Shown here piece by piece: positions 24,542-63,150 of a stretch of 64,000 nucleotides of DNA (its first letter is position 1; every line of letters starts with the position of its first letter). Position numbers and translations under genes: made by a program. The stretch covers positions 1-64,000 of the forward strand of contig CAMYKZ010000001.1 in assembly GCA_947259045.1 (NCBI GenBank). The letters are read 5' to 3'. The notes under the pieces are model-generated. The model saw nothing but the letters and a program-made list of their open reading frames with translations, was not told the DNA's origin and ran no database searches. Source of the stretch: an uncultured Afifella sp. (lineage in GTDB: Bacteria; Pseudomonadota; Alphaproteobacteria; Rhizobiales; Afifellaceae).

Positions 24542-24582
24542 GGGGCATGCAACCGGCTCTGATCGGACTTGATTGACCGGCA

Positions 24583-25542: not shown

Positions 25543-25687
25543 GAATCAGGCCCCGTTACCAGATCAGATGCTTTACCGGAGACAGCGGCCTTTGACACGC
25601 CCGTTGCGGCGATTTCTCAGGCCAGCCGCAATGAAACGCCGGGCCGGACATCCACGCAGATGCCCCGCCCGGCGCATTGAGATTGAA

Positions 25688-25984
25688 TTACCGGCGCCGC
25701 CGGATCGGCCGGTGTATGCCGTTGATCCTGTAGCGCCGGGCCTGTGCCAGATCTGCGCGCGGATCGATCATAAGGGGCTGATGCACAGCCCGGTCGACAT
25801 CGTCCCGGGTCAGTCCGATATCGCTTAATATGCGGTCGTCCAGATCGGACATTCTGCGCGCCGCTTTATGACCTTCAAAGGCCTTGCCTACCGAACCGAC
25901 ACGCTGCGCCAGTCGATGCAGGATTTCATTGAGCCGCGCTGTAAACCCGGCTGCGTGCGTCGATTTTCCATACTGCAAATACAT
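25688..25984 (-). CDS. DUF1127 domain protein
   Basis: A 98-residue basic protein. The DUF1127 motif is HKAARRMSDLDDRILSDIGLTRDDVDRAV, at about residues 42-71. Small DUF1127 proteins occur in many alphaproteobacteria; some bind RNA or link phosphate and carbon metabolism. A C-terminal RRYRINGIHRPIRRRR tail is highly basic. ATG 25984 with a GGAG site seven bases upstream is preferred over the longer frame from 26071. It is divergent from the LysR-type regulator, sharing a 152-base upstream region. Confidence 0.8.
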   Translation of the reverse strand: MYLQYGKSTHAAGFTARLNEILHRLAQRVGSVGKAFEGHKAARRMSDLDDRILSDIGLTRDDVDRAVHQPLMIDPRADLAQARRYRINGIHRPIRRRR

Positions 25985-26136
25985 ACCTGTCTCCATCATT
26001 TGCCGGCCAGAGCGGTCGGTCCAACGTACCGGCCTCTGCCTGAACAGCTGCCTTGGAAACAAAATGCACATTGGCTATTGATCAATCAAACGAAAAGGTC
26101 TTATGTTTAAGTTCAAAATAATTGAAAGGCGTGATC

Positions 26137-27033
26137 ATGGCCCTGCAACCGATTATTGATCCGGAACTGCTGCGCACATTCCTGGCAATTGCAGACACCG
26201 GCAGCTTTTCCGCTGCCGCCGATATCGTCGGCCGAACACCGTCGGCGGTTTCCATGCAAATCAAGAAGCTGGAAGAAATGATCGAACGCCGGCTGTTCGA
26301 CCGTGATTCACGGTCCGTCATCCTGACGGCAAACGGCGAGGCCCTTGTGACCGATGCCCGCAGACTGGTCGATATGAACGCCCAGCTTCTCGCCCGCATG
26401 CGCACCCCGGATCTCGCCGGTTCGATTACAGTCGGCACGCCGGATGAATATGCCACGACTTTCCTGCCCTGCGTGCTGCGCCGCTTCGCCCGTACCCACC
26501 CGGCCGTACAGGTCAATGTGGTGTGTGATTATTCCACTATTCTGCAGGAGAAACTGCGTCAGGGCGAAATTGATGCCGCCATGGTGACGGAAGCCGAACT
26601 GGACTCTTTGATCATCAACAGCCGCACTGTCTATGAGGAAGATCTGGCCTGGCTCGGCGCCCGCAACGGATCAGCAGGGCTTCTCAGGCCGCTGCCCATC
26701 GCGGTTGCCAATGTGCAATGCTGCTGGCGCGTCCGCTCCGTTGCGGCACTTTCGCGCGCCGGTATCGACCACAAGATTGCCTATTCCAGCGCCTCCGCTG
26801 CCGGTCAGCTTGCCGCCGTGGCCGCCGATCTGGCGGTGGCGCCGCTTCCGGTCAGCCTGGAGAACAATGCGGTGGTGCGGCTCGGCCCCGATTCCGGCCT
26901 GCCGTCGCTTGGCACATACCGTATCGCCTTTGCCTGGCAGGACCACGGCAATGCCTGCATTGACGCCCTGGTCGATCATGTCGAGGCAAGTTTTGCCGTC
27001 GGCGCGCCCCGCGCCATCGAAGTCGCCGCCTGA
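26137..27033 (+). CDS. LysR-type transcriptional regulator
   Basis: 298 residues. The N-terminal winged helix-turn-helix reads ELLRTFLAIADTGSFSAAADIVGRTPSAVSMQIKKLEE, the canonical LysR pattern, followed by a linker helix and a substrate-binding domain (SITVGTPDEYATTFLPCVLRRF). The ligand is unknown. The divergent neighbour is the DUF1127 gene. The shared region contains the 10-bp palindrome ATTGATCAAT at 26077-26086, a possible binding site. ATG 26137 with an AAAGG site is preferred over TTG 26122. Confidence 0.9.
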   Translation: MALQPIIDPELLRTFLAIADTGSFSAAADIVGRTPSAVSMQIKKLEEMIERRLFDRDSRSVILTANGEALVTDARRLVDMNAQLLARMRTPDLAGSITVGTPDEYATTFLPCVLRRFARTHPAVQVNVVCDYSTILQEKLRQGEIDAAMVTEAELDSLIINSRTVYEEDLAWLGARNGSAGLLRPLPIAVANVQCCWRVRSVAALSRAGIDHKIAYSSASAAGQLAAVAADLAVAPLPVSLENNAVVRLGPDSGLPSLGTYRIAFAWQDHGNACIDALVDHVEASFAVGAPRAIEVAA

Positions 27034-27081
27034 AATGCAGACGACAATGGCGCCAATGATCATCCTGCCGGGCCCGGTTGA

Positions 27082-27819
27082 ATGACCACAAACCGCCGTT
27101 GCGGTTTGGGCGCCGGCGTGCTGGCGATTGCTGTTGCCGTTCTGCTGCTTGCACCGGACCGGCGATCCGGCACACCCGGTCACGGGACAGTTCAGGCAGC
27201 CGGCGGGGCAGTCGACGTCGCCATCGTGCTGACGGTGGACTGTTCGTGGAGTGTCGACGGGCATGAGTACGACCTGCAGATGAAAGGCCTGGCAATGGCG
27301 TTTCGCAGCCGCGATGTCATCGATGCAATCCATTCCGGACCAAGGGGGCGCATTGCCGTCGCGCTGGTGCAGTGGGCGGCACCGGACAGTCAGCATCTCG
27401 CTATTTCCTGGCAGATCATCGAAACGCAGACAGACGCGCTTCTGCTCGCGGCCCGCATTGAAACCGCCGTCCGGCAGATTGCCGATGGCGCAACGTCAAT
27501 CACCGCGGCAATCGACACGGCGACCCACCTGCACCAGGCACGCCCCTTCCCCGCCGACCGGCGTGTCATCGATGTCTCCAGTGACGGTATCAACAATGCC
27601 GGCGGCATACCCGAACAGGCCCGTGATCTGGCCGTCAGCCGCGGCATCACCGTCAATGCGCTGGCCATTCTGAATGAGGTCGGTTACCTGCACCATTATT
27701 TCCGCAACCATGTCATTGGCGGCCCGGCGGCCTTTGTCGAGGTGGCCGCCGATTACAGCGACTACCACCGCGCCATCAAACGCAAGCTGCTGCGCGAGAT
27801 CGGCCTGCCGCTGTCGTGA
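27082..27819 (+). CDS. DUF1194 domain protein, von Willebrand factor A-like, exported
   Basis: 245 residues. An N-terminal signal or anchor helix spans about residues 9-25 and ends near VQAAGG. The vWA-like domain starts VDVAIVLTVDCSWSVDG, whose D-x-S-x-S residues form a MIDAS-type metal site. RVIDVSSDGINNAG is the second conserved strand, and ITVNALAILNE and DYHRAIKRKLLREIG follow. The match is to DUF1194. It is probably a periplasmic protein that binds partners through the metal site; function is unknown. It lies 48 bases after the LysR gene and 32 before the PhzF gene on the same strand. Confidence 0.85.
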   Translation: MTTNRRCGLGAGVLAIAVAVLLLAPDRRSGTPGHGTVQAAGGAVDVAIVLTVDCSWSVDGHEYDLQMKGLAMAFRSRDVIDAIHSGPRGRIAVALVQWAAPDSQHLAISWQIIETQTDALLLAARIETAVRQIADGATSITAAIDTATHLHQARPFPADRRVIDVSSDGINNAGGIPEQARDLAVSRGITVNALAILNEVGYLHHYFRNHVIGGPAAFVEVAADYSDYHRAIKRKLLREIGLPLS

Positions 27820-27851
27820 GGCAAGTGACCAATCAGCATTTGGAGCCTGAG

Positions 27852-28679
27852 ATGGACATTCTTCGTATTGCAGCCTTTTCCGACGGAGAGACCGGCGGCA
27901 ACCCGGCCGGAATCGTCATCGGCGACGCTCTGCCGGCGCCGGAACGGATGCAGGCTGTCGCCGCCGACGTCGGTTTTTCGGAAACGGCGTTTGCCGCACC
28001 GGCGGAACATGGCTGGCGGGTGCGTTATTTTTCACCGGAATCGGAGGTGCCATTCTGCGGCCATGCAACGATTGCGCTTGGAGCGGCGCTGGCGCTCCGG
28101 CACGGCGACGGTGTTTTTGCCCTGACGCTGAATGATGCCGAGATCACCGTGGAAGGCCGGCGCGAGGGCGATACGATTGCCGGCGCCCTGCAATCGCCGC
28201 CGACCCGCAGCGCGCCGGCAGACCCGGAACTTGTGACGCGGGCGCTGTCCCTGTTCGGTTATGAGCCCGACGATCTTGATCCGCGCATTCCGCCGGCCAT
28301 CGCCGAGGCCGGCGCGATCCATCTCGTCCTGGCGCTGGCGAAACGACAGCGGCTTGCCGAGATGGACTACGATCTGGATGCCGGGCGCCGCTTGATGAAT
28401 GAAGCCGGTCTTGTCACGATCAGCCTTGTTCATGCCGAAACCCCGCAACTGTTTCATGCCCGCAACCCGTTTGCGTCCGGCGGCGTGCTGGAAGATCCGG
28501 CCACAGGCGCCGCCGCAGCGGCTCTCGGAGGCTATCTGCGCGATCTGGGCTGGCCTCACGGCGGTGCGATCCATATCGTTCAGGGCGAGGATATGGGCAT
28601 GCGCTCGCTCCTGAAGGCTGAGATACCGCCCGAGCACGGAAGCTCGATCCGGGTTTCAGGCACCGCCCGGCTGATGTAA
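27852..28679 (+). CDS. PhzF family isomerase/epimerase
   Basis: A 275-residue PhzF-fold protein. The N-terminal motif is FSDGETGGNPAGIVI, the catalytic Glu lies in VGFSETAFAAP, and VRYFSPESEVPFCGHATIAL follows. The second half has FASGGVLEDPATGAAAAALGGYL, the conserved Asp region. The fold is related to diaminopimelate epimerase; members isomerise or epimerise small metabolites. There is no phenazine gene cluster here, so a phenazine role is not supported. The ATG has a GGAG site. The open frame extends 12 codons upstream without support. Confidence 0.87.
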   Translation: MDILRIAAFSDGETGGNPAGIVIGDALPAPERMQAVAADVGFSETAFAAPAEHGWRVRYFSPESEVPFCGHATIALGAALALRHGDGVFALTLNDAEITVEGRREGDTIAGALQSPPTRSAPADPELVTRALSLFGYEPDDLDPRIPPAIAEAGAIHLVLALAKRQRLAEMDYDLDAGRRLMNEAGLVTISLVHAETPQLFHARNPFASGGVLEDPATGAAAAALGGYLRDLGWPHGGAIHIVQGEDMGMRSLLKAEIPPEHGSSIRVSGTARLM

Positions 28680-28707
28680 CGGCCGGCTCCTGCCCGTTCG
28701 CATGGTG

Positions 28708-29799
28708 CTACTCGGCGGCATCCATCACCGGCTCGATATCGCCATGGAATTCCGGCCGGTAAGGTTTGGCGGTCGGCGGCAGCTCACGCTTGATGAACCA
28801 GTCTTCGTATTTCAGCTGCCGCTTCAGCGCCGGCCAGACTTCGCGGTAAGCGTCCAGCATGCTGGTGTTCGGTGGCGGCAGGTCGTGCTTGATCAGGTCG
28901 TGCAGCTTCGGCAGCGCGTGATAGGGCACCATGGGAAACATGTGATGCTCCACATGATAGTTCATGTTCAGATAGATGAACCGGCTGACGGGGTTGAGAT
29001 AGACCGTGCGGCTGTTGAGCCGGTGATCGAGCACATTGTCTGCAAGGCCCGCATGTTGCAGCACGCCGGTGAGAACATGATGCCAGGCGCCGTAAAGCCG
29101 CGGCAGGCCGATCAGCAGCAGCGGCAATATCGAGCCCGTTGCAATCGCCAGGGCTATCGTGGCCGTATAGATCGCCAGCCAGATCCGGGCAATCCGGATA
29201 ACTTTCGGCTGTTCGGTTTCCGGAATATAGCTCGCTTCCTCCGCATCGATGGATCCGAGCGCATTCTTCAGCATGATTTTCATGGCGCGAACCGCATCCA
29301 GAATTCCGAAGAGATTCAACGCAATCCGCAGCAGGTCGGGTGGCCGCATTGCGACGATTTCCGGGTCGCGGCCGACAATGACCGTATCGGTATGATGGCG
29401 CGCATGGCTCCATCGCCATGTCACCGGATTGCGCATGATCATGAAGCAGGCGATCTGGTAGACGACATTGTTCATCCAGGCTGTCCGGAAGGCGGTGCCA
29501 TGGCCGCATTCGTGCCAGCGCGAATCCGACGCCGAGCCGTAAAGCACGCCATATGCGAGTAAAAACGGCACTGACCAGACCGTCGGCCAGAGCGCCACGG
29601 CAGCGGCAGCAAAAACTAGCATCAGCCCGAGCCAGAGAAACGTATCGCGGATGGCCCGCTGATCGGAGCGCTGCATCAGCGTTTTCATCTGCTTGCGCGT
29701 CACGTCGGTGTGATACCATTCTGCCGAGGCCAGGCCGGTTTCGACGGCCCTCCGGCCATCGCTCCCGAGCAGATTGTAATCGCGTTTTGTTCTTGGCAT
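28708..29799 (-). CDS. Fatty acid desaturase family protein
   Basis: A 363-residue integral membrane di-iron enzyme. The three histidine boxes are present: HECGHG, HARHH and, near the C-terminus, YHVEHHMFPMVPYHALPKL. Hydrophobic helices lie between boxes, including WLGLMLVFAAAAVALW. The enzyme introduces a double bond or hydroxyl into lipid acyl chains; regioselectivity is not predictable. ATG 29799 (MPRTKRDYNLL) with GGAGGG upstream is preferred to ATG 29829. It is divergent from the APH/P-loop gene, with a perfect FNR-type box between them. Confidence 0.87.
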   Translation of the reverse strand: MPRTKRDYNLLGSDGRRAVETGLASAEWYHTDVTRKQMKTLMQRSDQRAIRDTFLWLGLMLVFAAAAVALWPTVWSVPFLLAYGVLYGSASDSRWHECGHGTAFRTAWMNNVVYQIACFMIMRNPVTWRWSHARHHTDTVIVGRDPEIVAMRPPDLLRIALNLFGILDAVRAMKIMLKNALGSIDAEEASYIPETEQPKVIRIARIWLAIYTATIALAIATGSILPLLLIGLPRLYGAWHHVLTGVLQHAGLADNVLDHRLNSRTVYLNPVSRFIYLNMNYHVEHHMFPMVPYHALPKLHDLIKHDLPPPNTSMLDAYREVWPALKRQLKYEDWFIKRELPPTAKPYRPEFHGDIEPVMDAAE

Positions 29800-30220
29800 T
29801 TCCACGCGCCCTCCAATCGGCCGAAGCATAGGTCACCCGGCCCGGTCGCCTCAATGTCGAAACGTGTTTTTCTTTCATTTTCGGTCATCGGCGCAGTCGG
29901 TCCGCAACCATGGAACGGCCGGGTTGCGGAATTGCCGGATTGCTGCGGACAGCTTCATTCCTCAGCTTCGTCTTGCCTGCTCAAGAACAAGAACTGGAAA
30001 TTTGCACTGATATTGATCCCCATCAATGCCCCAATGTTAATCGGAAATAACTTGAAGCTGTGACTTAAAAAGAAAAAGGGACTGCACCGAAATCGATGGC
30101 CATAAGGAAGCCGGGATGTTCGGTTCAGTCACAATCAAATGACCAGGCGAAGACGGTAATTGTCCTGACCCGGGCGGTTGCCGTTTCAGATGACCGGACT
30201 CGAAACCGGGATTGTCTTTC
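29800..30220. other. Long divergent intergenic region, desaturase / APH-P-loop gene
   Basis: About 420 bases with no established gene. It contains a perfect FNR-type palindrome (30013-30026) and a 42-codon open frame (30096-30224) overlapping the next start codon. From 29940 to 30100 the sequence is more AT-rich than the genes around it. No terminator or repeat was found. Confidence 0.5.
30013..30026. promoter_or_regulatory. Perfect FNR/FixK box
   Basis: TTGAT-CCCC-ATCAA is an exact match to the FNR/FixK/FnrN consensus TTGAT-N4-ATCAA. A class II position toward the right would place transcription near 30061, with AT-rich sequence at the -10 position, reading into the APH/P-loop gene. A leftward reading would serve the desaturase. 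Low-oxygen control is inferred. Confidence 0.7.
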
Positions 30221-30224
30221 ATGA
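30096..30224 (+). CDS. Possible leader ORF overlapping the APH/P-loop start (tentative)
   Basis: A 42-codon frame from ATG 30096 ends in a TGA that overlaps the ATG at 30221 (ATGA). It has no recognised domain and a poor ribosome site (AAAGGG about 15 bases before). The coupling geometry is the only support. It may be chance. Confidence 0.2.
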   Translation: MAIRKPGCSVQSQSNDQAKTVIVLTRAVAVSDDRTRNRDCLS

Positions 30225-31774
30225 ACGCCAACACGGATTTGACTGTTGAGGCAGCCGACCAGGCTCAGGTGATCGACTTCCTTTCCGATCCGGCCAGTCA
30301 CCCTGACGCGGATAACGTCCGGCGCATCGATACCCACGCCGCAATCGTGTTCCTGGCCGGTTCCGATGCCTACAAGATCAAACGGGCGGTGACCTATCCC
30401 TTCCTTGATTTCTCGACGCTGGAAAAGCGGCGGCTGGCCTGTGTGCATGAAATCGAGGTCAATCAGGCAAACGCGCCACAAATCTACAACCGGGCAATCG
30501 CCATCACGCGGGAGCCGGATGGGACGCTGATGATCGGCGGAAACGGCACAATCGTCGAATGGGCCGTGCATATGAACCGGTTTGACGAATCCCGGACATT
30601 GGATCGCGTGATCCAGGACGGCCCTTTGCAGGACACAGTCGTAGATGCGCTGGCGCACGAAATGGTGCGCGCTCATGCCCGGGCGCCGCTTCGCGATGCC
30701 GGTCCGTGGATTGCCGACCTGCGGCGGTATGTCGACCAGAACGCCGAAGCGTTCGCACACAATGTGGAGCTTTTTCCGGTTCCGCGCGCCGCATGGCTGG
30801 CGGAGCGTGCGAAAACCGCGCATCGGCAAATCAGTCCCCTGCTCGAGGCACGCGGATCCGATGGCCATACTAGGCTTTGCCACGGCGATGCCCATCTTGG
30901 AAATATCGTGCTGATCGGCAGTGAACCGGTATTGTTCGACGCAATCGAGTTCGATGACGTGATTGCGACGGCGGACGTGCTCTACGACCTGGCGTTTCTG
31001 TTGATGGATCTGTGGGAGCGCGGCCATATTCACGAGGCCAACCGGACGCTCAACCGGTATCTGACCGAAAGCCGTTGCGCCGATCATTACGACGGACTGG
31101 CGGCCCTGCCGTTTTTCCTGATGATGCGGGCATCGATCAGGGCAAAAGTTGCAGCATCACGGCGCGATTTCTGCGCAATGCCTGAACGCGAGACCGTCAC
31201 GTCACAGGCGAAGGCGTATTTTTCCGCTGCTTGTGACTTCCTGAGTGAGAAATCGCCGAGGCTCGTCGCCGTTGGCGGCCTGTCGGGATCGGGCAAATCG
31301 ACGTTGGCGGCCAGGCTTGCCGCCCTGGTCGGGCGTGCGCCGGGTGCTGTGGTGCTGCGCTCCGATGTGATGCGCAAGCATCTGTTTGGCGTGGACGAAA
31401 AGGATCGTCTGCCGCCGCAGGCCTACTCCGCCGCTGCAAGCCGGATGGTATACGACCATATTGGCGAAACGGCCGAGCGGATCCTGAAAACCGGGCATTC
31501 CGTCATCGCAGACGCGGTCTTTGCCGGCCGGAAACAACGTGACGCCATTGCCGATATCGGCCGGCGCGTCCCGTTTACCGGCCTGTGGCTCGACGCGCCG
31601 GTCGATGTGCTGAAGGCACGGGTGGACGCAAGGATAAATGATGCTTCCGACGCCGACGAAGCCGTCGTGGAACTCCAAACGGCGATTGATGTCGGCGAAA
31701 TGTCGTGGCCCCGGATTGACGGCTCCGGCACACCCGAACGGGTATTGAAGCAGGCGGAAAATTTTCTCCATTAG
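30221..31774 (+). CDS. Bifunctional APH-like phosphotransferase / P-loop kinase
   Basis: A 517-residue two-domain protein. The N-terminal two thirds resemble aminoglycoside phosphotransferase/kinase folds: KIKRAVTYPFLDFST, the catalytic loop LCHGDAHLGNIVL and the metal-binding DAIEFDDVIATADVLYD. The C-terminal third is a P-loop kinase with Walker A in VGGLSGSGKSTLAARLA and a lid region with DAVFAGRKQRDAI. Similar fusions occur in proteobacteria, often in low-oxygen regulons, but substrates are unknown and antibiotic modification should not be assumed. The perfect FNR box upstream fits that pattern. Confidence 0.85.
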   Translation: MNANTDLTVEAADQAQVIDFLSDPASHPDADNVRRIDTHAAIVFLAGSDAYKIKRAVTYPFLDFSTLEKRRLACVHEIEVNQANAPQIYNRAIAITREPDGTLMIGGNGTIVEWAVHMNRFDESRTLDRVIQDGPLQDTVVDALAHEMVRAHARAPLRDAGPWIADLRRYVDQNAEAFAHNVELFPVPRAAWLAERAKTAHRQISPLLEARGSDGHTRLCHGDAHLGNIVLIGSEPVLFDAIEFDDVIATADVLYDLAFLLMDLWERGHIHEANRTLNRYLTESRCADHYDGLAALPFFLMMRASIRAKVAASRRDFCAMPERETVTSQAKAYFSAACDFLSEKSPRLVAVGGLSGSGKSTLAARLAALVGRAPGAVVLRSDVMRKHLFGVDEKDRLPPQAYSAAASRMVYDHIGETAERILKTGHSVIADAVFAGRKQRDAIADIGRRVPFTGLWLDAPVDVLKARVDARINDASDADEAVVELQTAIDVGEMSWPRIDGSGTPERVLKQAENFLH

Positions 31775-31918
31775 GCATCCATCCCGGGCCTCATTTATGC
31801 CCGGGTTCATGCGTTGCCCGATACTTGCAGCATTGTCTTCGATCAATGCGCCGGATCGAAAGGGAACGACAATCATCGATAACGATGCTGCTCAGGGCAT
31901 TCCAGAAGAGGTCACCCC

Positions 31919-32311
31919 ATGCTCGATATCGCACCTGAAAAAGTCTCCCATGTCATCGTGCGTGCGCGCGAAATCGACACCAAGGTGGATGCATGGGATG
32001 AACCGGGCGACGAAGCTGACGCCGCCTCCGTTCTTGAAAATCGCGGTGATGATGCCACCGAAGCGGAACTGCGGGCGTTCATCGCCGGTCTGAACGTCGA
32101 CGAAAGCGTCAGCCTTGTTGCACTCATGTGGATCGGCCGCGGCACCTTCGAGCCGGATGAACTTGGGCAGGCCAAGGAAACGGCGCGGGCCGAACGGGTC
32201 AATCCGACGGAAGATTACCTGCTCGGCGTCCCGCTGCTGGCGGACTATCTGGAAGAAGGGCTCGACCGGCTCGGCATCTCCGTGGAGGACGCCGAGGAGG
32301 GTATTCTGTAG
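31919..32311 (+). CDS. DUF3775 domain protein
   Basis: A 130-residue acidic protein. Landmarks are KVSHVIVRAREIDTKVD at the N-terminus, LRAFIAGLNVDESVSLVALMWIGRG in the middle and YLLGVPLLADYLEEGLDRLG at the C-terminus. This is the DUF3775 pattern, a small alphaproteobacterial family without a known function. The ATG has an AGAGG site. It is convergent with the 78-residue gene at 32323, 11 bases between stops. Confidence 0.83.
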   Translation: MLDIAPEKVSHVIVRAREIDTKVDAWDEPGDEADAASVLENRGDDATEAELRAFIAGLNVDESVSLVALMWIGRGTFEPDELGQAKETARAERVNPTEDYLLGVPLLADYLEEGLDRLGISVEDAEEGIL

Positions 32312-32322
32312 ATCGCCGCTAC

Positions 32323-32559
32323 CTACATCGGATCAAGCTCCGCCTGCGGCACGTAAAAGAAATGCGCTTTGTTATCGCCGATCCGCAACTCAATCTCAGC
32401 CGTCCCGTTGCCGGATTCATCGGCGCCGCAAAAAATAAACACATTCGCCTGAAAGCGCGGGCGGAGATATTCAAGCTCCTCGTCCGGCAGCCCGCGAAGC
32501 AGCGCTTCCGCATTTCCGCTAAAGCGGACAAGGCTTCCGGGTTTCAGTTTACCGCTCAA
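32323..32559 (-). CDS. Small hypothetical protein coupled to the FAD oxidoreductase
   Basis: 78 residues beginning at TTG 32559, three bases after the stop of the FAD oxidoreductase gene, so translational coupling is likely. The sequence is PGSLVRFSGNAEALLRGLPDEELEYL followed by NVFIFCGADESGNGTAEIELRIGDNKAHFFYVP, mostly predicted beta (landmarks). No family recognised. Its position directly behind the oxidoreductase suggests it belongs to the same unit. Confidence 0.55.
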   Translation of the reverse strand: MSGKLKPGSLVRFSGNAEALLRGLPDEELEYLRPRFQANVFIFCGADESGNGTAEIELRIGDNKAHFFYVPQAELDPM

Positions 32560-32562
32560 AGT

Positions 32563-34014
32563 TCAGACCCAGGGGCAGTTGGAATTGCGGTCGCCATAGG
32601 TCCATCCCTCGCCGTAGCGCTTGAAGGCGAACGGCTGCAGTTCTTCCGGCATGTCTCCGGTTGAAAGCAGATCCGCCACCAGCCTGCCGACGCCGATCAT
32701 CTTGAAACCGTGGTTGGAATCGGCGGTCATGAAGGCATTGTCGGCGACCCAGTCGAAGATCGGCACATTGTCGGGCGTGAACGCGCCGATGCCGCCATTG
32801 CGGCGCTCCTTGTAATGGCTGCGCAGGCCCTCGAAGCGGCCGAACAACTGGCCGGCGACAGCGCAGTAATAATCGGCAAACCAGGGGTCGGCCTGATAGG
32901 CATCGTTCAGATGGCCGTAGGGTTCGAGTGCCGCCTTCGGTCCCATCTTGACCGGGATCGTGCCGCCCTGAAGGCCCGGCGCGCCGACCCGTTCGGCCGC
33001 ATAACGGGTGTACCAGTAAACGTGGTCCTGAAGTTCCTTGCCGTCATCGCCGATCACAGGCGTGTTCATCAGTTCCACATGCAGAACAGGCGAATCCCTG
33101 CCGTCAGCGGTGCGGAAATCCACCCCCTCGGGCAGGTAAACCTCTCCTTCAAGCAGCCGCCAGTAGGTCCACATGTCCATGGCTTTTTCGACATGGCCGT
33201 CAGGATAGGTCACGTCCAGCGTATCGCCGCCGCCGAGCCATTGATAATGCAGCGGCATCCAGGCGCCGGTTGCCACCACCAGCGCCTCACCGACCCGGAC
33301 CGAGCCGGCGTCGGTATGAACGGCGGTCACCGTTCCGCCGGTCTTGTCGTAGCCGGTCACCTCGCGGCCATAGACCCGCCGAACGCCCCATTGGTGGCAC
33401 TTCTGGTCAAGCCCCCAGCAGGCCATGTGAGTGCCGGCATAACCGGACGGTTTTTCGTGCAGCACGACGTCGCAACTGCCGGTCTTGAAATCGGGCCAGA
33501 CCGACTTCAGCTTTGCCCGGGCCTCAGCGCCGACATAGAGATCGGACGGATATCCCTGGTCGTTCTGGCTCTTGTGCAGCCGGATATAGTCCTCCTCCTG
33601 ATTGGCCTCTCCGACGGATATGTATCCGACCTGCTGGAACCCCAGATTGACCGGATCGGATTCCCAGACCTTGACGCTTTCGCGCAGGATCGCGTGCAGC
33701 GGTTCGGTCATGTAGAGGTTGCGCACGCAGCCGCAGGCCAGCCCCGTCGCGCCCGCGCCCGGCCCCTGCTTGTCGATCAGCACCACATCAGAGCCCCTTC
33801 CCTTGCCGCTTTTTTCCAGCGCCATCGCAAGATGCCAGGCCGTCGACATGCCGTGCACGCCGGCGCCGACGACGACAAAACGGGCGGCTTCCGGCAACGG
33901 CGCGGCATCGAAGACCGGCACCACCGGCGGATTGACTGCCGTGCCGTTGCCGACCGGCAGAGGCCGGTCGCCGAAGGGATAATATTGATTGTGGCCCGTT
34001 TCGCTGCCAGCCAT
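32563..34014 (-). CDS. FAD-dependent oxidoreductase, DAO family
   Basis: A 483-residue flavoprotein. The FAD motif is ARFVVVGAGVHGMSTAWHLAMAL at about residues 44-66, with VLIDKQGPGAGATG next. The DAO-type C-terminal half includes AFTPDNVPIFDWVADNAFM and SNHGFKMIGVGRLVADLL. These match glycine/sarcosine/dimethylglycine oxidase-like amine oxidases. It oxidises an unknown secondary or primary amine. ATG 34014 with a GGAG site is preferred to 34080. It is followed by the small coupled gene at 32559. Confidence 0.85.
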   Translation of the reverse strand: MAGSETGHNQYYPFGDRPLPVGNGTAVNPPVVPVFDAAPLPEAARFVVVGAGVHGMSTAWHLAMALEKSGKGRGSDVVLIDKQGPGAGATGLACGCVRNLYMTEPLHAILRESVKVWESDPVNLGFQQVGYISVGEANQEEDYIRLHKSQNDQGYPSDLYVGAEARAKLKSVWPDFKTGSCDVVLHEKPSGYAGTHMACWGLDQKCHQWGVRRVYGREVTGYDKTGGTVTAVHTDAGSVRVGEALVVATGAWMPLHYQWLGGGDTLDVTYPDGHVEKAMDMWTYWRLLEGEVYLPEGVDFRTADGRDSPVLHVELMNTPVIGDDGKELQDHVYWYTRYAAERVGAPGLQGGTIPVKMGPKAALEPYGHLNDAYQADPWFADYYCAVAGQLFGRFEGLRSHYKERRNGGIGAFTPDNVPIFDWVADNAFMTADSNHGFKMIGVGRLVADLLSTGDMPEELQPFAFKRYGEGWTYGDRNSNCPWV

Positions 34015-34181
34015 GGTCGGTCTCCGCCTGGGTCGCCCTGATGCTGGCGGAAGGATGCTTGAGCGGTCAATTCCGTGCAAGCACTTTCATCGCCGGACTG
34101 TCGGGCAATTCGGCAAAACACCGGCGGATGACGAATGCATGGCCAGCGACAGTGGCGTCCGACCCAACCGGTCCGGCGAAC

Positions 34182-34793
34182 CTACCGGTCAGACAGCGCC
34201 AGCTTCAGGCCGAGCAGGCCAAACGTGCCGGCGAACGACCGCCGCAACCAGACCATGACGGACGGACGCGAAATGACATAATCGCGCGCCAGCGACGCGC
34301 CGACGGCATAACCGACAAAAACGATGAATGTCAGCGCCATGAACATCAGCGCAAGCAGCAAGAGTTTCGGCGTCGGATCGATCGCCTGCGCCGGGACGAA
34401 TTGCGGCAGAAACGCCAGAAAGAAAAGCGAGAGTTTCGGGTTCAGCACGTTGAGCAGGATTCCGTTAACGACGATCCGCCCGGATGCCGCCTTCGTGCCG
34501 GCACCGGAAATCGTCAATGCGCCGCCTTCGCGCAGAATGCTCCAGGCCATGTAAAGCAGATAGGCAACGCCGAGATATTTGACGACCTGAAAAGCCAGTG
34601 CGCTGGTGTGCAGGATGGCGGCCAATCCGACGATGCTGGCAAAGACATGCGGCACGATGCCCAGCGTACAGCCGAAAGCGGCGACAATGCCGGACCGCGC
34701 GCCCTGGCCGAGCCCGACTGCGAGGGTGTAAAGCACACCCGTTCCGGGCAACAGGATCACCACAATCGATGTGACGAGAAATTCAATGCTCAT
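34182..34793 (-). CDS. LysE family translocator
   Basis: A 203-residue RhtB/LysE-type exporter with about six helices. It begins IEFLVTSIVVILLPGTGVLYTLAVGLGQGARSGIVAAFG, including the conserved G-x-G region. Later segments are VKYLGVAYLLYMAWSILREGG and NGILLNVLNPKLSLFFLAFLPQFV (N-P-K motif). It exports amino acids or derivatives. The ATG has a GAGG site. It lies just before the lower-GC island. Confidence 0.88.
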   Translation of the reverse strand: MSIEFLVTSIVVILLPGTGVLYTLAVGLGQGARSGIVAAFGCTLGIVPHVFASIVGLAAILHTSALAFQVVKYLGVAYLLYMAWSILREGGALTISGAGTKAASGRIVVNGILLNVLNPKLSLFFLAFLPQFVPAQAIDPTPKLLLLALMFMALTFIVFVGYAVGASLARDYVISRPSVMVWLRRSFAGTFGLLGLKLALSDR

Positions 34794-34995
34794 GTTCTAT
34801 CCTCTGCCCAGATGCCGAAAGCATGAAGTCTTGCCTGCCTTCATGTCAACGGAGACATGGATCACACCCTTGATTCTGACTGCGACCAATGGAAGCTTTG
34901 AGCCCATTTTTACAGTTTTTCTGCGCCGCAACCAACGTCCGCATATCGTGCGGTCCGTTGTTTCGGAAGGAATGCCCTAAACGAGAATTGAAAAG

Positions 34996-35504
34996 CTAGG
35001 AGCTTTGTGAGGGCGCCAGCCCTACTCTCATTCCCTTCACTTGGCACACTGTTTCGCCGTCCACTTCGACCCGGCCATCAGCGACACCCAACTTTAGGCG
35101 TCGGTTGATGACACGTTTAAAATTCACGTGATACGTCAACAGCTTTCGGTGTGGCTGCACCATCCCAGAAAGTTTAATTTCACCGGCGCCCATGGCCATT
35201 CCCAACCTTGCCAACCACGCCAGCCAAGGTTGAAGCCAGCGAGCTGCCATAACCCATCCAGCATCAGGCATCCAGGCATGACCGGGTTGCCGATAAAGTG
35301 GCAGTGAAAGAACCAAAGATCAGGATGCAGATCTAACTCGGCTTTGATATGACCGACGCCCGCCTCTCCTCCGTCTGCGCTGACGTCAGTAATCCTATCC
35401 ATCATGAGCATCGGAGGGGCAGGTAGTTGCGCATTACCGGGTCCGAACAGTTCGCCTTGGGCGCACCTTAACAAGTCGTTTTTTTCAAAAGAATTGGGAA
35501 ACAT
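34996..35504 (-). pseudogene. fabA: fabA-like 3-hydroxydecanoyl-ACP dehydratase gene, frameshifted
   Basis: The two minus-strand frames join into a FabA of about 169 residues, close to the usual 172. Part one has [49 protein letters not shown] with the catalytic His, and [15 protein letters not shown] with the catalytic Asp. One base is missing near 35205-35210. The second frame then gives [34 protein letters not shown] and the C-terminus. The total length of 509 bases (not a multiple of three) agrees with a one-base loss. As read, the product is truncated at 122 residues with both catalytic residues but no second half. Base composition and codons differ from neighbours, suggesting transfer. 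Confidence 0.88.
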
Positions 35505-35981
35505 ATCTAGGCTCTCGTTTTCAACGGTGGCGTATGTTTATTCGCTGTTGTTGAAGTTAATAAATCCCAATGACTATCAACGTTTGGAGAACGTCCAGCG
35601 GATCATTCATTGATACGTCTCCTGTCTGAGTGATCACGATAGGCGTCCGATTGAGATATCGTCCCTAGATAGCGTGATAATCCACCCATTAATAGCGCGA
35701 GGGTCGACATGACATGACTGGAACTCAACGACTTTATGTTGGCCCCATACTGGAAGCCGCCGTTCGTGCATCCGCAGCGAATTCACACTAAGTCCGCAGA
35801 GCCGACCTTGGAACTTTATACAGCGCATGTCCGGAGTGAGCCCTTTTCGGACATGCGGAAAACTCTTTCCAAGGACTGGAATTCGCCTCAGTCCCAATTC
35901 GCGATGCACTTGATGCAGCTCAAAAGCGGTCGCGGCATCAAGCTGTAGTGTATTGGCGATTTGGTCGTACTGGAGCCCGAA
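35505..35981. other. Low-GC intergenic region of the island
   Basis: About 477 bases between fabA and the NTF2-like gene, poorer in GC than the rest of the window. Open frames on both strands (35634-36017 minus; 35736-35948 plus) show no family likeness and have unlikely codon use. A perfect 10-bp stem hairpin lies at 35824-35857. The region may hold remnants of a decayed gene and the promoters of the flanking divergent genes. Confidence 0.4.
35824..35857. repeat. Perfect 10-bp inverted repeat
   Basis: CGCATGTCCG and CGGACATGCG are separated by 14 bases. It lies about 125 bases before the NTF2-like start. It has no T-tract. It may be an operator, RNA hairpin or transposon remnant. Confidence 0.5.
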
Positions 35982-36377
35982 ATGTCCAACGAACACCCGA
36001 ATATCGTGCTGATGCAACAGCTCGACCTAGGCAATCTAGCCGCAGCCAAAGACGTGTTCGCCGAAGATGTAGTCTGGCATTACTTCAATCCCAATCTGCC
36101 TGACATGCAGGGCGATTATGTGGGGCTGGACGGTATCCGGTCATTCTTCGAAGCCATCGGCCAGAAGTCCAGGGGGACATTCAAGGTACAACCGGTTTCG
36201 ACCACCGCTGTTGGTGACGAATTGGTTGTTGTGCAGACAAGGAATACGTTGACCTTTCAAGGTCACTCCACCGCGTTGGACGTAGTCGTCGTGTGGCGTT
36301 TTGTAGACGGGCGCATTGTCGAGGTCTGGGACATTGTCCCAGGTCGCCCTGCGGAGGCTCAAGATGAAAGGCGCTGA
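35982..36377 (+). CDS. Nuclear transport factor 2 / SnoaL-like protein
   Basis: 131 residues with the cone-shaped NTF2-like pattern. It has an N-terminal helix (IVLMQQLDLGNLAAAKDVFAEDVVWHYFNP), a DYVGLDGIRSFFEAIGQKS helix and three beta strands ending VVVVWRFVDGRIVEVWDIVPG. Members are small isomerases, hydratases or ligand binders. ATG 35982 has a GGAG site. Its 3' end overlaps the next gene by 14 bases, so the two form an operon in the island. Confidence 0.8.
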   Translation: MSNEHPNIVLMQQLDLGNLAAAKDVFAEDVVWHYFNPNLPDMQGDYVGLDGIRSFFEAIGQKSRGTFKVQPVSTTAVGDELVVVQTRNTLTFQGHSTALDVVVVWRFVDGRIVEVWDIVPGRPAEAQDERR

Positions 36378-37917
36378 CGAAACAAATTGGGATGCCATTG
36401 TCATCGGCTCTGGCATGGGCGGCATGGCTGCCGCCGCCGCACTGTCAAAGGTCGGACAAAACGTGCTTTTGCTGGAGCAATACCGTACGCTTGGCGGGTT
36501 GACCCACAGCTTCTCTCGCGAAGGATTCACCTGGGATGCGGGCATTCACTACCTGAGTGGCATTGCTCCAGGTGATCGGGAGCGTGAAATCCTGGACTGG
36601 TTGTCCCAAACACCTATCGAGTTCACCTCGATGGGATCCGTCTACGACAACCTGCACATAGGAGATTTAAAGCCGCTTCCGTTGTCGCGGCCATACGAGG
36701 CTCAGGAGCGTGATCTCAAGGATCGCTTTCCCGACGAAACGGAAGCGATTGAGGCGTGGACGATGGCGCTCAGGGAAGGCCGCGACGCCATGCTTAAAAT
36801 CTTTCCGACACGCGCTATGCCCGAGCTCTTGGGTAGTGCACTGCAATGGTGGAACAGCAGTGCCATCGAGCGGTGGTGCGGGCGCACGACGCAGGAGGTT
36901 ATCGACGAGATAACGCAGAATTCAGAACTAGCGGCTGCCTTTGCGGCGCAGTGGGGCGATCACGGTGGCCGACCCAGCAAGGCGAGCTTTGCGATGCACG
37001 CCTTGATATCGGGTTCGTACCTGCAAAGTGGCTCATGGTACCCGGTGGGCGGTGGGGCTGCGTTTGCCGAGCATATCCTGCCAACCATCACCGTCGGAGG
37101 TGGCGATGTGCGAGCCGGTGTCAGGGTCGATGAACTGCTGCTTGAGAAAGATCGGGTCGTTGGGATCAAAACAGCGGATGGCGAGGAAATCCACGCAAAT
37201 GTAGTTATCTCGGATATCGGCGCGCGAGAGACGGTGAACCACCTTCTGCCAGCCCGTTGCGGATATGACGACTGGATTGCGAACATAAGATCGCTTCCGC
37301 CATCGATTGCTCATTTCAGCCTGTTCATGGGTTTTGAAGGCGATATCGAAGATGCCGGTGCAACCCGCTCGAACCATTGGATCTATCCAACGGGCAAGGT
37401 CGACGTGGTCTGGGCGGACGCTCCTGATAACTCGCCGCCCGGCATGTTCGTCTCCTTCGCATCGCTGAAGGATCCGTCACACGATTCCGGTCCCAAGCAA
37501 AAACATGCGGGCGAGATGGTGGCCTGGACCGATTGGTCGACCGTGGAGCGTTGGGCAGACAAAGCATCGGGCATGCGCAGCGACGACTATCAGGCGTTCA
37601 AACAACAAGTCGAGGACGTCATGTTCGCTCAGTTCAAGACATACTTCCCTGAGTTGGCTGAGCTAGTGGTGTTCCGCGAATTGTCGACCCCGCTGGCCAC
37701 CGCATCGATTACTGGGCACCATGAAGGTGCGTTCTACGGGTTGGATGTCACCCCGCAACGCGTCATGAGCGATGCATTACAAGCCAAAACACCGATCGAG
37801 GGCCTCTACCTCGCGGGGCAGGACGTAGCGAGCCCTGGCATTCCCGGCGCGCTGTGGGGCGGGCTGCTTGCTGCCGCCAGCGTCGATGCGAAGGTATTCA
37901 AGCAATTCCGCGGATAG
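36364..37917 (+). CDS. Retinol-saturase/CrtISO-like FAD-dependent oxidoreductase
   Basis: 517 residues. The dinucleotide-binding motif near residue 12 is AIVIGSGMGGMAAAAALSK, and GGLTHSFSREGFTWDAGIHYLSG follows. The C-terminal FAD motif is PIEGLYLAGQDVASPGIPGALWGGL. This matches all-trans-retinol 13,14-reductase and carotenoid isomerase-type proteins rather than classical phytoene desaturases. It reduces or isomerises a conjugated lipid; the substrate is unknown and no carotenoid genes are nearby. ATG 36364 has a GGAGG site and overlaps the NTF2-like gene. Composition is closer to the island than to the flanks. Confidence 0.85.
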   Translation: MKGADETNWDAIVIGSGMGGMAAAAALSKVGQNVLLLEQYRTLGGLTHSFSREGFTWDAGIHYLSGIAPGDREREILDWLSQTPIEFTSMGSVYDNLHIGDLKPLPLSRPYEAQERDLKDRFPDETEAIEAWTMALREGRDAMLKIFPTRAMPELLGSALQWWNSSAIERWCGRTTQEVIDEITQNSELAAAFAAQWGDHGGRPSKASFAMHALISGSYLQSGSWYPVGGGAAFAEHILPTITVGGGDVRAGVRVDELLLEKDRVVGIKTADGEEIHANVVISDIGARETVNHLLPARCGYDDWIANIRSLPPSIAHFSLFMGFEGDIEDAGATRSNHWIYPTGKVDVVWADAPDNSPPGMFVSFASLKDPSHDSGPKQKHAGEMVAWTDWSTVERWADKASGMRSDDYQAFKQQVEDVMFAQFKTYFPELAELVVFRELSTPLATASITGHHEGAFYGLDVTPQRVMSDALQAKTPIEGLYLAGQDVASPGIPGALWGGLLAAASVDAKVFKQFRG

Positions 37918-38239
37918 CCCGCACGTGGTGTTGGGAGTGATTTCGCTGTGGGACGCCGCCGCGATGACCGCGTTTATATTTTGACTCTAGAAACCCTCTA
38001 TTATCTGACTTTGGGCTTCTTTTTCACCCACGAAGTAGACGCTGTGAAGCGGCACGAGTGGATCGCCGCCACGACAAGACTATAATTCAAAGCAGGCGCA
38101 GCGCGCAGAAGCTGCCATTATGATTGGTTCGGTGCACGGCAGTTTTGTCCACAGAGCCGTCGATCGGCAATCTTTGATTGGCCGGACAGTCTTGAGTTGA
38201 ATCTCCCCAGCGAGGACGCTTGTCACTGCAGACCCAAGC
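37918..38239. other. Intergenic region at the right edge of the island
   Basis: 322 bases with mixed composition. The only coding-like trace is a 34-codon fragment at 37981-38085. GC content rises again at about 38200 as the RidA gene starts. No inverted repeats of an insertion sequence or tRNA attachment site were seen. Confidence 0.4.
37981..38085 (+). pseudogene. Fragment of a small membrane protein (LFTHELDA-type)
   Basis: A 34-residue frame reading ETLYYLTLGFFFTHEVDAV then KRHEWIAATTRL, followed by TAA. It resembles the N-terminal part of small membrane proteins that carry F-T-H-E-x-D-A and HEW motifs (I believe the family named DUF6713, not certain). The family continues with a further helix that is missing here. 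It looks like a truncated remnant. The first codon is TTG. Confidence 0.45.
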
Positions 38240-38590
38240 TCACAACAGTGCCGCCGTCACGACAATCTCGATCAGATCATCGCCGGCCAGATCGGCACCG
38301 ACGCAGGCCCGCTGCGGCCAGTTTTCTTCACCGCCGATCCAGTCGCACCAGACGGCATCCATATGCACCTTCATCGACATGTCCTTCAGATAGACGGTCG
38401 CCTGGAGCAACCCGCCTTTGCCGCTTCCGGCGTCGATCAGGTTGCGCTCCAGCGCTTCCAGCGTCAGCCGGGTCTGGTCGGCGATATTGTCTGCCGAGCT
38501 TGTATCGGTCGCGACCGCATAGACCAGGCCGCCATGGACAACGGCACGGCAGCGGCCTTTTGCTTTGCCCGATAATCTCTTCACTGTCAT
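38240..38590 (-). CDS. RidA/YjgF family protein
   Basis: A 116-residue RidA-like protein. It shows VVHGGLVYAVATDTS, DQTRLTLEALERNLIDAGSGKGGLLQATVYLKDM and a C-terminal VGADLAGDDLIEIVVTAALL. The catalytic Arg of canonical RidA (in the C-R-x motif near residue 105) sits in RACVGADL here, with Arg and Cys present. RidA enzymes hydrolyse reactive enamines/imines. The ATG has an AAGGAG site. It lies 92 bases downstream of merA on the same strand. Confidence 0.82.
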   Translation of the reverse strand: MTVKRLSGKAKGRCRAVVHGGLVYAVATDTSSADNIADQTRLTLEALERNLIDAGSGKGGLLQATVYLKDMSMKVHMDAVWCDWIGGEENWPQRACVGADLAGDDLIEIVVTAALL

Positions 38591-38681
38591 GGATCGATCT
38601 CCTTAACCTGCGTCAAGGAAACTTTATCATCTGCGCGCCGGAACCGCCATTTGCCGGACGTGCCGAAGTTCGACGGCAATC

Positions 38682-40082
38682 CTATCCCGCGCAGCAGGAC
38701 AGCTTGCTCACATCCATCTCGAACGTCTGCGCCGCGAGTTTCAGCCCTTCCACATTGGTCAGATAGGGGAAGATCATCTCACCCAACTGCTCGTAGGTCA
38801 TGCCGGTCTTGATCGCCAGCGCCGCGGTCTGGATGCTGTCGGCGCCTTCCGGCGCCAGGATGTAGGCGCCGACCAGCGTCTTTGTCGTCGCGCCGGCGAC
38901 CAGTTTGATCAGCCCTCTTGTGTCGCGGGCGGCCAGCGCACGCGGAACATTGTCCAGGCTCAGCACCGATGTCCTGACCTGAAGGCCGGCAGCCTCTGCG
39001 CTGGCTTGCGTATGGCCGACGCTGGCCACCTGCGGATCGGTGAAGACGACAGCGGGCATCGCGTAATTGTCATAAGCCAGATCGTCGCCGTTGATGGCGT
39101 TGCGCGCCGCAATCTTTGCGCCATAGGCCGCCATATAGACAAACTGGTCACGCCCGGTGATATCGCCGGCAGCGTAGACATTCCTGCAACTGGTGCGCAT
39201 GTGGCGGTCAACGGCGATGCCGCCCTGGTCGTTCAGCTTGATAGCGCCGGCTTTCAGGTTGAGATCCTCGACGTTCGGCGTCCGGCCGGTTGCGATCAGA
39301 ACGGCTTCCGCCTCCAGCATTTCCGGAACTTTGCCGTGACGCACATACAGCCGGATGTCGCCTGCCCGGCCCTCGATCCGGTCATATCCGATGCCGCTGA
39401 CGCATTGAATACCTTCGGCTTCGAATATACCGGTCAGCGCATGGCTGATCTCGGGCTCCGCCTCCGGCAGCAGGCCGCGCCGGCTGACCAGGCTCACTTT
39501 GACGCCGGCGCGCGAAAACATCTGCGCCAGTTCCGCGCCGATATAACCGGCGCCGATCACCAGCAGCGATTTCGGCAGCTGCTCCAGTTCCAGCGCCGTG
39601 GTGCTGGTAAGCGTCGGCACTTGCCTGATCCCCTTGATTGAGGGAAGTGCGGGACGTGAGCCGCTGGCGATTATGATCTTGCCGGCGTCGAGCGGTTCGC
39701 CGCCGACCGTCAGTTTACCCCTGCCGGAAAAAGACGCCTTACCCTCAAGATAGGCAAGGGAATTGTAAGCCGGCAGCAGATCGCTGTATTTCGCCTGCCG
39801 CAATTCGTCGACAAGCGCCTGTTTCCGGCGAACGACCGAGGCCCAGTCGGTAATCCGGGCCGACGCCTCGATGCCGCCGAAGCGGTTCGCCGTCGCAGCC
39901 GCATGCAATGTTTCGGTGGCGCGGATCATCGTCTTGGACGGTACGCAACCGGCATTGACGCAGGTCCCGCCGATCGTGCCGTGGCCGATCAGCGCCACCT
40001 GCGCGCCTTCATCGGCGGCGGTGATTGCGGCTGAAAATCCGGCCGAGCCGGCGCCGATCACCGCGACATCGTAACGGGGCAT
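38682..40082 (-). CDS. merA: Mercury(II) reductase
   Basis: 466 residues, the catalytic core without the N-terminal HMA (NmerA) domain. The FAD motif is YDVAVIGAGSAGFSAAI. The redox pair is in IGGTCVNAGCVPSKTMIRA, the NAD-binding motif in SLLVIGAGYIGAELAQMF, and the vicinal C-terminal cysteines that bind Hg(II) in SKLSCCAG. It reduces Hg(II) to volatile Hg(0) with NADPH in the cytoplasm. It follows merF by nine bases, and both are read from the MerR-type promoter at 40347-40377. Confidence 0.94.
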   Translation of the reverse strand: MPRYDVAVIGAGSAGFSAAITAADEGAQVALIGHGTIGGTCVNAGCVPSKTMIRATETLHAAATANRFGGIEASARITDWASVVRRKQALVDELRQAKYSDLLPAYNSLAYLEGKASFSGRGKLTVGGEPLDAGKIIIASGSRPALPSIKGIRQVPTLTSTTALELEQLPKSLLVIGAGYIGAELAQMFSRAGVKVSLVSRRGLLPEAEPEISHALTGIFEAEGIQCVSGIGYDRIEGRAGDIRLYVRHGKVPEMLEAEAVLIATGRTPNVEDLNLKAGAIKLNDQGGIAVDRHMRTSCRNVYAAGDITGRDQFVYMAAYGAKIAARNAINGDDLAYDNYAMPAVVFTDPQVASVGHTQASAEAAGLQVRTSVLSLDNVPRALAARDTRGLIKLVAGATTKTLVGAYILAPEGADSIQTAALAIKTGMTYEQLGEMIFPYLTNVEGLKLAAQTFEMDVSKLSCCAG

Positions 40083-40091
40083 CGGGATATC

Positions 40092-40307
40092 CTAAGCCTC
40101 GCTCTGCCGGCGCGACCGCCGCCAGAGCGCATAGACCGTCAAGACGACAAAAAATCCGAGTGCCGGCAGAAGGACCAGATCGAGATAACCGACCAGCCCC
40201 GCTAGGCCGACAACACCAAACAGAATGACGAGCACCGGCGTGAAGCAGCAGAGCGCCGCAATCACCGTGCCGATGATGCCTGTTTTCAGAAGTCCCTTGT
40301 CCGTCAT
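40092..40307 (-). CDS. merF: Mercury transporter MerF
   Basis: A 71-residue protein with two membrane helices. The Cys pair at the N-terminal helix is in GTVIAALCCFTPVLVIL, the MerF signature. FVVLTVYALWRRSRR closes the second helix. MerF brings Hg(II) across the inner membrane to MerA. No merT or merP is present, so MerF is the only recognisable importer here. Confidence 0.92.
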   Translation of the reverse strand: MTDKGLLKTGIIGTVIAALCCFTPVLVILFGVVGLAGLVGYLDLVLLPALGFFVVLTVYALWRRSRRQSEA

Positions 40308-40346
40308 CGCGCCGATCCATGCTGTGTTTCAAAATTCGCAAAGACC

Positions 40347-40377
40347 ATGCTAAATCCTGTAGTAACTACAGATACAA
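40347..40377 (-). promoter_or_regulatory. MerR-type promoter/operator of merF-merA
   Basis: On the minus strand TTGTAT (40372-40377), a 19-base spacer and TAGCAT (40347-40352) flank the perfect palindrome CTGTAG-TAA-CTACAG (40357-40371, written from the plus strand). An over-long spacer holding a palindrome is the hallmark of MerR-activated promoters. MerR would bind here and also repress its own divergent gene. Confidence 0.8.
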
Positions 40378-40390
40378 GAGGTTTTTTTCG

Positions 40391-40822
40391 ATGTCCCAAT
40401 CCGATGCCGGGCCGGTTTATCCGATCGGTGAAATGTCGCGCAGAAGCGGCGTCAATATCGAGACAATCCGCTATTATGAGCGCATCGGCATCATGCCCGA
40501 ACCGGCGCGCAGCGCCGGCGGCCAGCGCCATTATGGCAGCGGCGAGCTGAGGCGCCTGGTGTTTATCCGCCAGAGCCGCAGGCTCGGTTTCAGCCTTAAC
40601 GAGATCCGCGCTCTGCTCAAGCTGGTTGACGCCGATACCCTGACCTGCGCCCAGGTTCATGCCCGCACCATCGAACATCTTGCCGATGTCCGGCAAAAAC
40701 TGACCGACCTGCGCCGGATGGAAAAGGTGCTGAAAACCATGGCGGCCGAGTGCAGCGGCGGCGACGTTCCCGATTGCCCGATCATCGACGCGCTGTTTAC
40801 CGATGCGCCGCCGGCTCGCTAG
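40391..40822 (+). CDS. merR: MerR mercury-responsive regulator
   Basis: 143 residues. The N-terminal winged helix reads YPIGEMSRRSGVNIETIRYYERIGIM. All three Hg-binding cysteines are present: TLTCAQVH, AAECSGG and PDCPII. This pattern identifies MerR rather than CueR or ZntR. The open frame continues upstream to 40319, but ATG 40391 begins at the usual N-terminus. It is divergent from merF-merA. Its TAG stop lies in the CTAG at the left border of the 40819-40942 element. Confidence 0.94.
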   Translation: MSQSDAGPVYPIGEMSRRSGVNIETIRYYERIGIMPEPARSAGGQRHYGSGELRRLVFIRQSRRLGFSLNEIRALLKLVDADTLTCAQVHARTIEHLADVRQKLTDLRRMEKVLKTMAAECSGGDVPDCPIIDALFTDAPPAR

Positions 40823-40942
40823 TGGATAGATTCAGACAAATGAAACACTCCGCTCGTCATCCCGGCCAAGCGGAAGCGAAGCTGGAGTGCAGAGCCGGGA
40901 TGACAATCGCGTGGAACTCTTATGTGTGAATTGAACCACTAG
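40819..40942. mobile_element. MITE-like inverted-repeat element with CTAG borders
   Basis: A 116-base body (40823-40938) is bracketed by CTAG on both sides (40819-40822 and 40939-40942). The ends are imperfect inverted repeats (TGG-x-T-xx-ATTCA-x-ACA, 16 of 22 bases). Inside is a perfect 11-bp stem, GTCATCCCGGC (40856-40866) with GCCGGGATGAC (40894-40904). It has no coding capacity. Left CTAG supplies the merR stop and right CTAG the tlpA stop. A 4-base CTAG duplication agrees with IS5-group YTAR targets; autonomous partner unknown. Confidence 0.65.
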
Positions 40943-41568
40943 CCCTTGACCGCCGCTGCGATCAGCGCCTTGGCGTCTTCAGAATCCCATTCCGCCGGCC
41001 CGGCCAGATGGCCGAGCAGGCAGCCGGCATCGTCGACAAGGATGCTGACGGGAAGCCCGAGGCCAAGGCCGCGCTTTTTGACATCCTGGAATATATCGGT
41101 TGTCGGATCGCGATGGAGCGCGAGGTTTTTCACCTTGATGGAGTCCAGAAAGGCCTGCGCCTTTTCAACAGGTCCGGTATCGATATTGACGGCAACAACC
41201 TGAAAGCCGCCGTCGCCGCCGAGATCCTTCTCGAGCCGGTCAAGTGCGGGCATTTCGCGCCGGCAGGGCGCACACCATGTCGCCCACAGATTGACCAGCA
41301 AAACCTTGCCGGAAAAACCGGCGAGCGTTGTGGGCTCGCCGTCCGCTTTGAGAAACGCCAGATCGGAAAGCGCCTGGGGCTGGCGCGGAATCTGGAATGC
41401 CGCCACTTCACCGGTCGCAAGACCGGCAATCGTCGCGTTGACAAAATCCGCATTTGCCACGCAGCTGTTTTCCGCTTCGACATTGCCTTCACGCGCCTGC
41501 ATCCCGTATAGGGCAGCAATGCCAATGCCGGTTGCGGCAACGATGCCAAGTGCCAGATTTCGCTTCAT
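40939..41568 (-). CDS. tlpA: TlpA family thiol:disulfide oxidoreductase
   Basis: 209 residues. An N-terminal membrane anchor spans about residues 4-21. The thioredoxin-like domain has the active site [16 protein letters not shown] and the cis-Pro segment [14 protein letters not shown]. The protein is periplasm-facing and membrane-bound, reducing disulfides, for instance during cytochrome oxidase or cytochrome c maturation. It is divergent from argH, a conserved arrangement in Hyphomicrobiales. It is unlikely to be part of the mer module despite adjacency. Its TAG stop is in the right CTAG of the MITE-like element. Confidence 0.9.
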
Positions 41569-62867: not shown

Positions 62868-63150
62868 GGTGTTTTCCGTTGATGTTGAACAATTCTGACG
62901 GACGAAATTCTTGACAAGGTCAAGTATCGGCGTGAAGGCCATATCGGGGATATGGTCGAGAGACGATGCGCCGAGATTGGCGGGAATTTGCCCGCTGCCG
63001 TCTGTTTCTGCTGGCTCAGTTGCCACTGGCGGCCGCCCGTCTGCAAACCGCCCTCGACCGATGCCCCGCATCGCCCTTCGTGCGTTTCACAACCGGATCG
63101 TCTCACCATCGGCAATCAGAATTGCTCAACATCAACGGAAAACACCCTAG
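62864..63150. mobile_element. MITE-like element with 31-bp terminal inverted repeats
   Basis: A 279-base body (62868-63146) is flanked by CTAG (62864-62867 and 63147-63150). The ends are 31-base inverted repeats differing at one position; each starts GGTGTTTTCCGTTGATGTTG. No frame inside resembles a transposase, so it is non-autonomous. The left CTAG gives the gloB stop codon (TAG). CTAG duplication fits IS5-group YTAR targets. Its internal sequence is unlike the element at 40819-40942, though both use CTAG. Confidence 0.82.

Follow-up and report, generated by a model that had tools for sequence, protein, structure and literature searches.

The window analyzed here, a stretch of 64,000 nucleotides from an uncultured Afifella sp., contains between the convergent genes merR and tlpA a 124-nt near-palindrome, CTAGTGG...CCACTAG (40819-40942), which is very probably a non-autonomous MITE that was mobilised by a transposase of the IS630/Tc1-mariner family and not of the IS5 group. 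Such a transposase would cut and paste at TA, here inside a preferred CTAG (C^TA^G), and an element that starts with G and ends with C would rebuild CTAG at both borders, so that a gene on either strand with its TAG stop in that CTAG would keep its stop. The original target was most likely one CTAG that provided the stop of both merR and tlpA. The features of the locus are as follows:

40391-40822, plus strand: merR-type regulator, 143 aa, ending in the left CTAG
40819-40822: left CTAG, read as C, duplicated TA and element G; contains the merR stop TAG (40820-40822, plus strand)
40819-40851, plus strand: left terminal arm, CTAGTGGATAGATTCAGACAAATGAAACACTCC
40822-40939: MITE proper by the TA-duplication rule of IS630 (alternatively 40823-40938, counting CTAG as the duplication)
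40855-40904: inner palindrome, CGTCATCCCGGCC...GAGCCGGGATGAC, similar to the CGTC-type REPs known from alphaproteobacteria
40913-40942, minus strand: right terminal arm, CTAGTGGTTCAATTCACACATAAGAGTTCC
40939-40942: right CTAG; contains the tlpA stop TAG (40939-40941, read on the minus strand)
40939-41568, minus strand: tlpA, thiol:disulfide interchange protein, 209 aa, ending in the right CTAG

The original prediction had described a non-coding inverted-repeat body bordered by CTAG on both sides, with a strong inner stem of 11 bp, and the sequence and its open reading frames agree with this description: the element is short, non-coding and devoid of a transposase ORF, and the stem, GTCATCCCGGC, is formed by pairing of 40856-40866 with 40894-40904. 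From CTAGTGG onward, both arms can be aligned to each other across ~48 columns, and the predicted DNA fold of the 124 nt (-23.2 kcal/mol, z -4.0) was equalled by none of 200 shuffles. The arms are imperfect, which suggests that the copy is old or was cross-mobilised. TA as well as CTAG flank the element on both sides, and because CTAG is palindromic, duplications of 2 bp (TA) and 4 bp (CTAG) look alike; the body measures 118 bp if only TA was duplicated (which is taken here from the known IS630 mechanism) and 116 bp if CTAG was.

The arms match an end family, CTAGTGGWTNRATTCNNACA, which occurs in multiple copies in alphaproteobacteria. A search of 397 genomes of the order with the end pattern CTAGTGGNTNNATTCANACA, allowing one mismatch, returned 43 matches in 18 genomes, compared to about 7 for the reversed pattern used as control, with up to 12 copies in one genome and 9 in another. 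Many of the alphaproteobacterial matches are elements of ~70-170 bp whose far end is also CTAG, a property that had not been a selection criterion of the genome search. Closest in appearance to the window element are single-unit forms of ~102-112 bp in Rhodobacteraceae and sphingomonads, and the left arm is identical to the end of one sphingomonad element at 22 of the first 24 positions. Since the pattern was derived from the arms in the window, the match at positions 1-20 is partly circular; positions 21-31, outside the pattern, rank in the top 0.7% (left arm) and 3% (right arm) of window sequence scores. Some side observations concern the architecture of the family: in one genome, three solo forms of 73-75 bp (L152, L216, L218) join the outer ends of a two-unit element of 169 bp, and the right flank of another element (L217) is a separate repeat of ~130 bp, ~78-94% identical, of which the genomes of one genus contain many copies. 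Two further family elements (L161, L219) are apparently inserted in or beside REP-like TCCCGG repeats, a nesting opposite to that in the window.

These ends also bound complete insertion sequences. One such end (L146) is joined to an IS630 transposase, and a complete IS630 of 1152 bp (L206) is present in a genome from the window's own taxonomic family; its ends are CTAGTGGATTAAATCTAACATTTG and CTAGTGGATCGAATCTAACACTTG, and its protein matches the NCBIfam IS630 model (NF033545) with an E value of 1.6e-80. DNA similar to this element is found in 542 plasmid records, and among the rhizobial copies fetched, most have left ends resembling CTAGTGGTTTCCGCCTGACATAAGAGTCC. The window's right arm and the left ends of the rhizobial plasmid IS630 have ACATAAGAGT in common, which lies mostly outside the search pattern. 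The window element thus possesses terminal inverted repeats that match those of an IS630-family element. Within the window's own assembly, no transposase with matching ends was found; the sole IS630 transposase found there has a different end (CTAGTCATCTGG...), and its gene is cut by the contig end. This transposase starts beside a CTAG that forms the stop of a TPR-protein gene (contig C117, ~1012-1060).

A preference of IS630 for CTAG has been reported (Tenzen and Ohtsubo 1991). IS630 duplicates TA, preferentially within CTAG (PMC2170065), a tetranucleotide that is ~12-fold depleted in the 64-kb window (20 sites versus 233 expected from base composition). At natural target sites, the kindred IS630 has likewise inserted into one CTAG. 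When the flanks of the copy in Rhizobium K1/93 are joined at one CTAG, the resulting sequence is found uninterrupted in Rhizobium B21/90, with 604 of 604 bp identical, and for a copy in Sinorhizobium fredii, other strains have single-CTAG sites without the IS; for the copy in Rhizobium L51/94, no empty site was found by joined flanks. Importantly, arsR has its stop in that CTAG in the empty B21/90 site, and in K1/93 its stop still lies in the CTAG at the border of the IS, where the same CTAG also stops the transposase. A DUF2252 gene likewise ends in CTAG, both at a filled site in Mesorhizobium and at an IS-free site in Rhizobium that is 80% identical. The expectation of a CTAG-targeted mobile element is thereby borne out, with empty sites of the kindred IS that carry exactly one CTAG. 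Stop-preserving insertion holds for these close kin, and the copy at the merR-tlpA locus presumably moved in the same way as the kindred IS630. The element shares its end type and, presumably, CTAG target and TA duplication with IS630 of the Tc1/mariner superfamily, including a complete kindred IS with the same ends, but differs from it by its length of 118 bp, the missing transposase gene and a REP-like core. Like the window element, IS630-related MITEs such as Correia/NEMIS and RUP are short, palindromic, intergenic and TA-flanked, with IS630-type ends. They have other ends and hosts, however, and use any TA, whereas the window element occupies CTAG and is present as a single copy.

This low copy number speaks against a MITE, for which multiple copies are usual although not required. 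Further copies in the same genome, which the original prediction expected, did not turn up: in the 4.77 Mb of the assembly (275 contigs), no second copy was detected by blastn, by the inner-hairpin pattern or by the end pattern. A full-length two-ended pattern had 0 matches in genome_contigs. The end pattern alone matches the genome 33 times, two of these matches being the element's own arms, and none of the others that were examined was paired or CTAG-flanked. By contrast, genomes of other genera hold several copies of the related elements. Blastn of the body against plasmid and phage sequences gave nothing useful, and against the 397 genomes of the order, it mostly retrieved the core alone (query positions ~25-88), in 18 other genomes.

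An alternative is that the whole structure is a REP-type palindrome or a bidirectional terminator between two convergent genes, and that its outer symmetry and CTAGs arose by coincidence. CGTC-tagged palindromic repeats are known in alphaproteobacteria (PMC3733652), the core resembles such REPs across the order, and hairpins between convergent genes can be terminators. Like the CGTC REPs, which are also intergenic, the core starts with CGTCATCCCGG and ends in its complement (PMC3733652). However, CGTC REPs are defined by a CGTC tag, a stem of 8-9 bp, a loop of 4-5 nt, a CCA tail and many copies per genome, while the window core, similar in tag and stem, has a loop of about 27 nt, occurs once in the genome and sits inside transposon ends. 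Moreover, a terminator scan of the element for a GC stem followed by a T-run was empty, there is no T-run, and an Rfam search of the element gave no match. The outer arms match a multi-copy family of mobile ends bounded by CTAG on either side, and the agreement of one arm with IS630 ends extends past the search pattern, all of which makes this alternative very improbable, although a transposon-derived element could act secondarily as a terminator; the core is rather a putative REP-like palindrome, presumably captured or co-evolved, to which no role is assigned. Extremely improbable is the assignment of the original prediction, namely an IS5-group MITE with a duplicated CTAG (YTAR) of 4 bp. The palindromic CTAG would fit a TA or a CTAG duplication alike, and an IS5-like MITE with CTAG or YTAA targets is known in Pseudomonas syringae (PMC3189936). 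However, the matching ends bound IS630 transposases (NF033545), none of the loci fetched held an IS5 element with such ends, and DUF4096, which marks one IS5 subgroup (IS427) and was the only IS5 marker looked for, is absent from the genome. A parallel exists in IS870 of Agrobacterium vitis, whose CTAG target is reported to supply a TAG stop codon (Fournier 1993); similarly, the transposase of the IS630 kin stops in the junction CTAG. IS870 itself is an IS5-family element, and presumably it is its own gene that receives the stop, whereas the host genes keep theirs around the window element.

The history of the host locus has to be considered as well. Both merR and tlpA are genuine genes with NCBIfam and Pfam matches, their C-termini are of usual length and end about as in relatives, and the coordinates place the TAG of merR in the left CTAG (plus strand) and that of tlpA in the right CTAG (minus strand), in agreement with the proposal that the insertion was harmless to either gene. 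None of the relatives fetched had merR next to tlpA, so that no element-free junction was seen. Instead, tlpA of family members is directly followed by a convergent gene for 3-hydroxyacyl-CoA dehydrogenase, which in the window lies at 23672-24538, 16 kb from tlpA; the gap extends over 24538-40939, with a merA-merF-merR cluster adjoining tlpA. Because the usual neighbor of tlpA is 16 kb away, the merR side must have been brought in or rearranged, and the block concerned ends on its right at or close to the element, which may have arrived before or after this event. The element might accordingly be a transposon copy that served as a recombination scar joining an incoming mer block to tlpA, in which case there never was a common CTAG of merR and tlpA, and the element itself brought their stops together. 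The displaced dehydrogenase and the lack of a merR-tlpA pair among the relatives fetched favor this scenario, but no second copy of the element was found at another block edge, the C-termini of both genes are natural, and a simple insertion accounts for both stops without extra steps, which renders the scar unlikely. With simple insertion of an IS630-related MITE as the preferred explanation, merR and tlpA would have shared one CTAG before the element arrived.

Stop codons are also occupied by other CTAG-bounded elements. A second element in the window (62864-63150, 287 bp), with near-perfect inverted ends of 35 bp, CTAGGGTGTTTTCCGTTGATGTTGA..CAATTCTGA, lies where a hydroxyacylglutathione hydrolase-like gene has its TAG stop, and about six of 23 related elements elsewhere border a plausible gene stop. 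One-sided stop cases were kept for L151, L152, L216, L217 and L221; L216 and L221 had also been considered as further double-stop cases and were rejected, since codon-position GC made one side of each doubtful. At L152 and L217, the stop is at its native position, since the genes of congeners terminate at the same codon; they do so with other stop codons and lack the CTAG, however, and do not represent single-CTAG empty sites. Several other CTAG sites of the window are likewise found at the ends of open frames, and an excess at stops over CTAG targeting can therefore not be claimed. Eight of the 20 CTAG sites of the window are clustered within 3 kb (34996-37987), a stretch that is partly of lower GC and possibly foreign DNA. 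It is a possible, still tentative generalization that CTAG-targeting elements exploit the rarity of CTAG inside genes by parking on TAG stops, above all on a CTAG shared by convergent genes, and that their G...C ends, which rebuild CTAG, represent a general safe-site strategy, of which the window element would be a double-stop example.

The element belongs to a familiar type, the IS630-related MITEs, and its landing site is unusually clean; its reading as a mobile element stands, with IS630 taking the place of IS5. The puzzling gap between merR and tlpA is now tied to a defined family of mobile elements, and the natural empty and filled sites of the kindred element demonstrate that an insertion at a stop can leave the gene unaffected. 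Should parking on stop codons prove general, this would account for the persistence of CTAG-targeting elements in compact genomes, even though their target is very rare.
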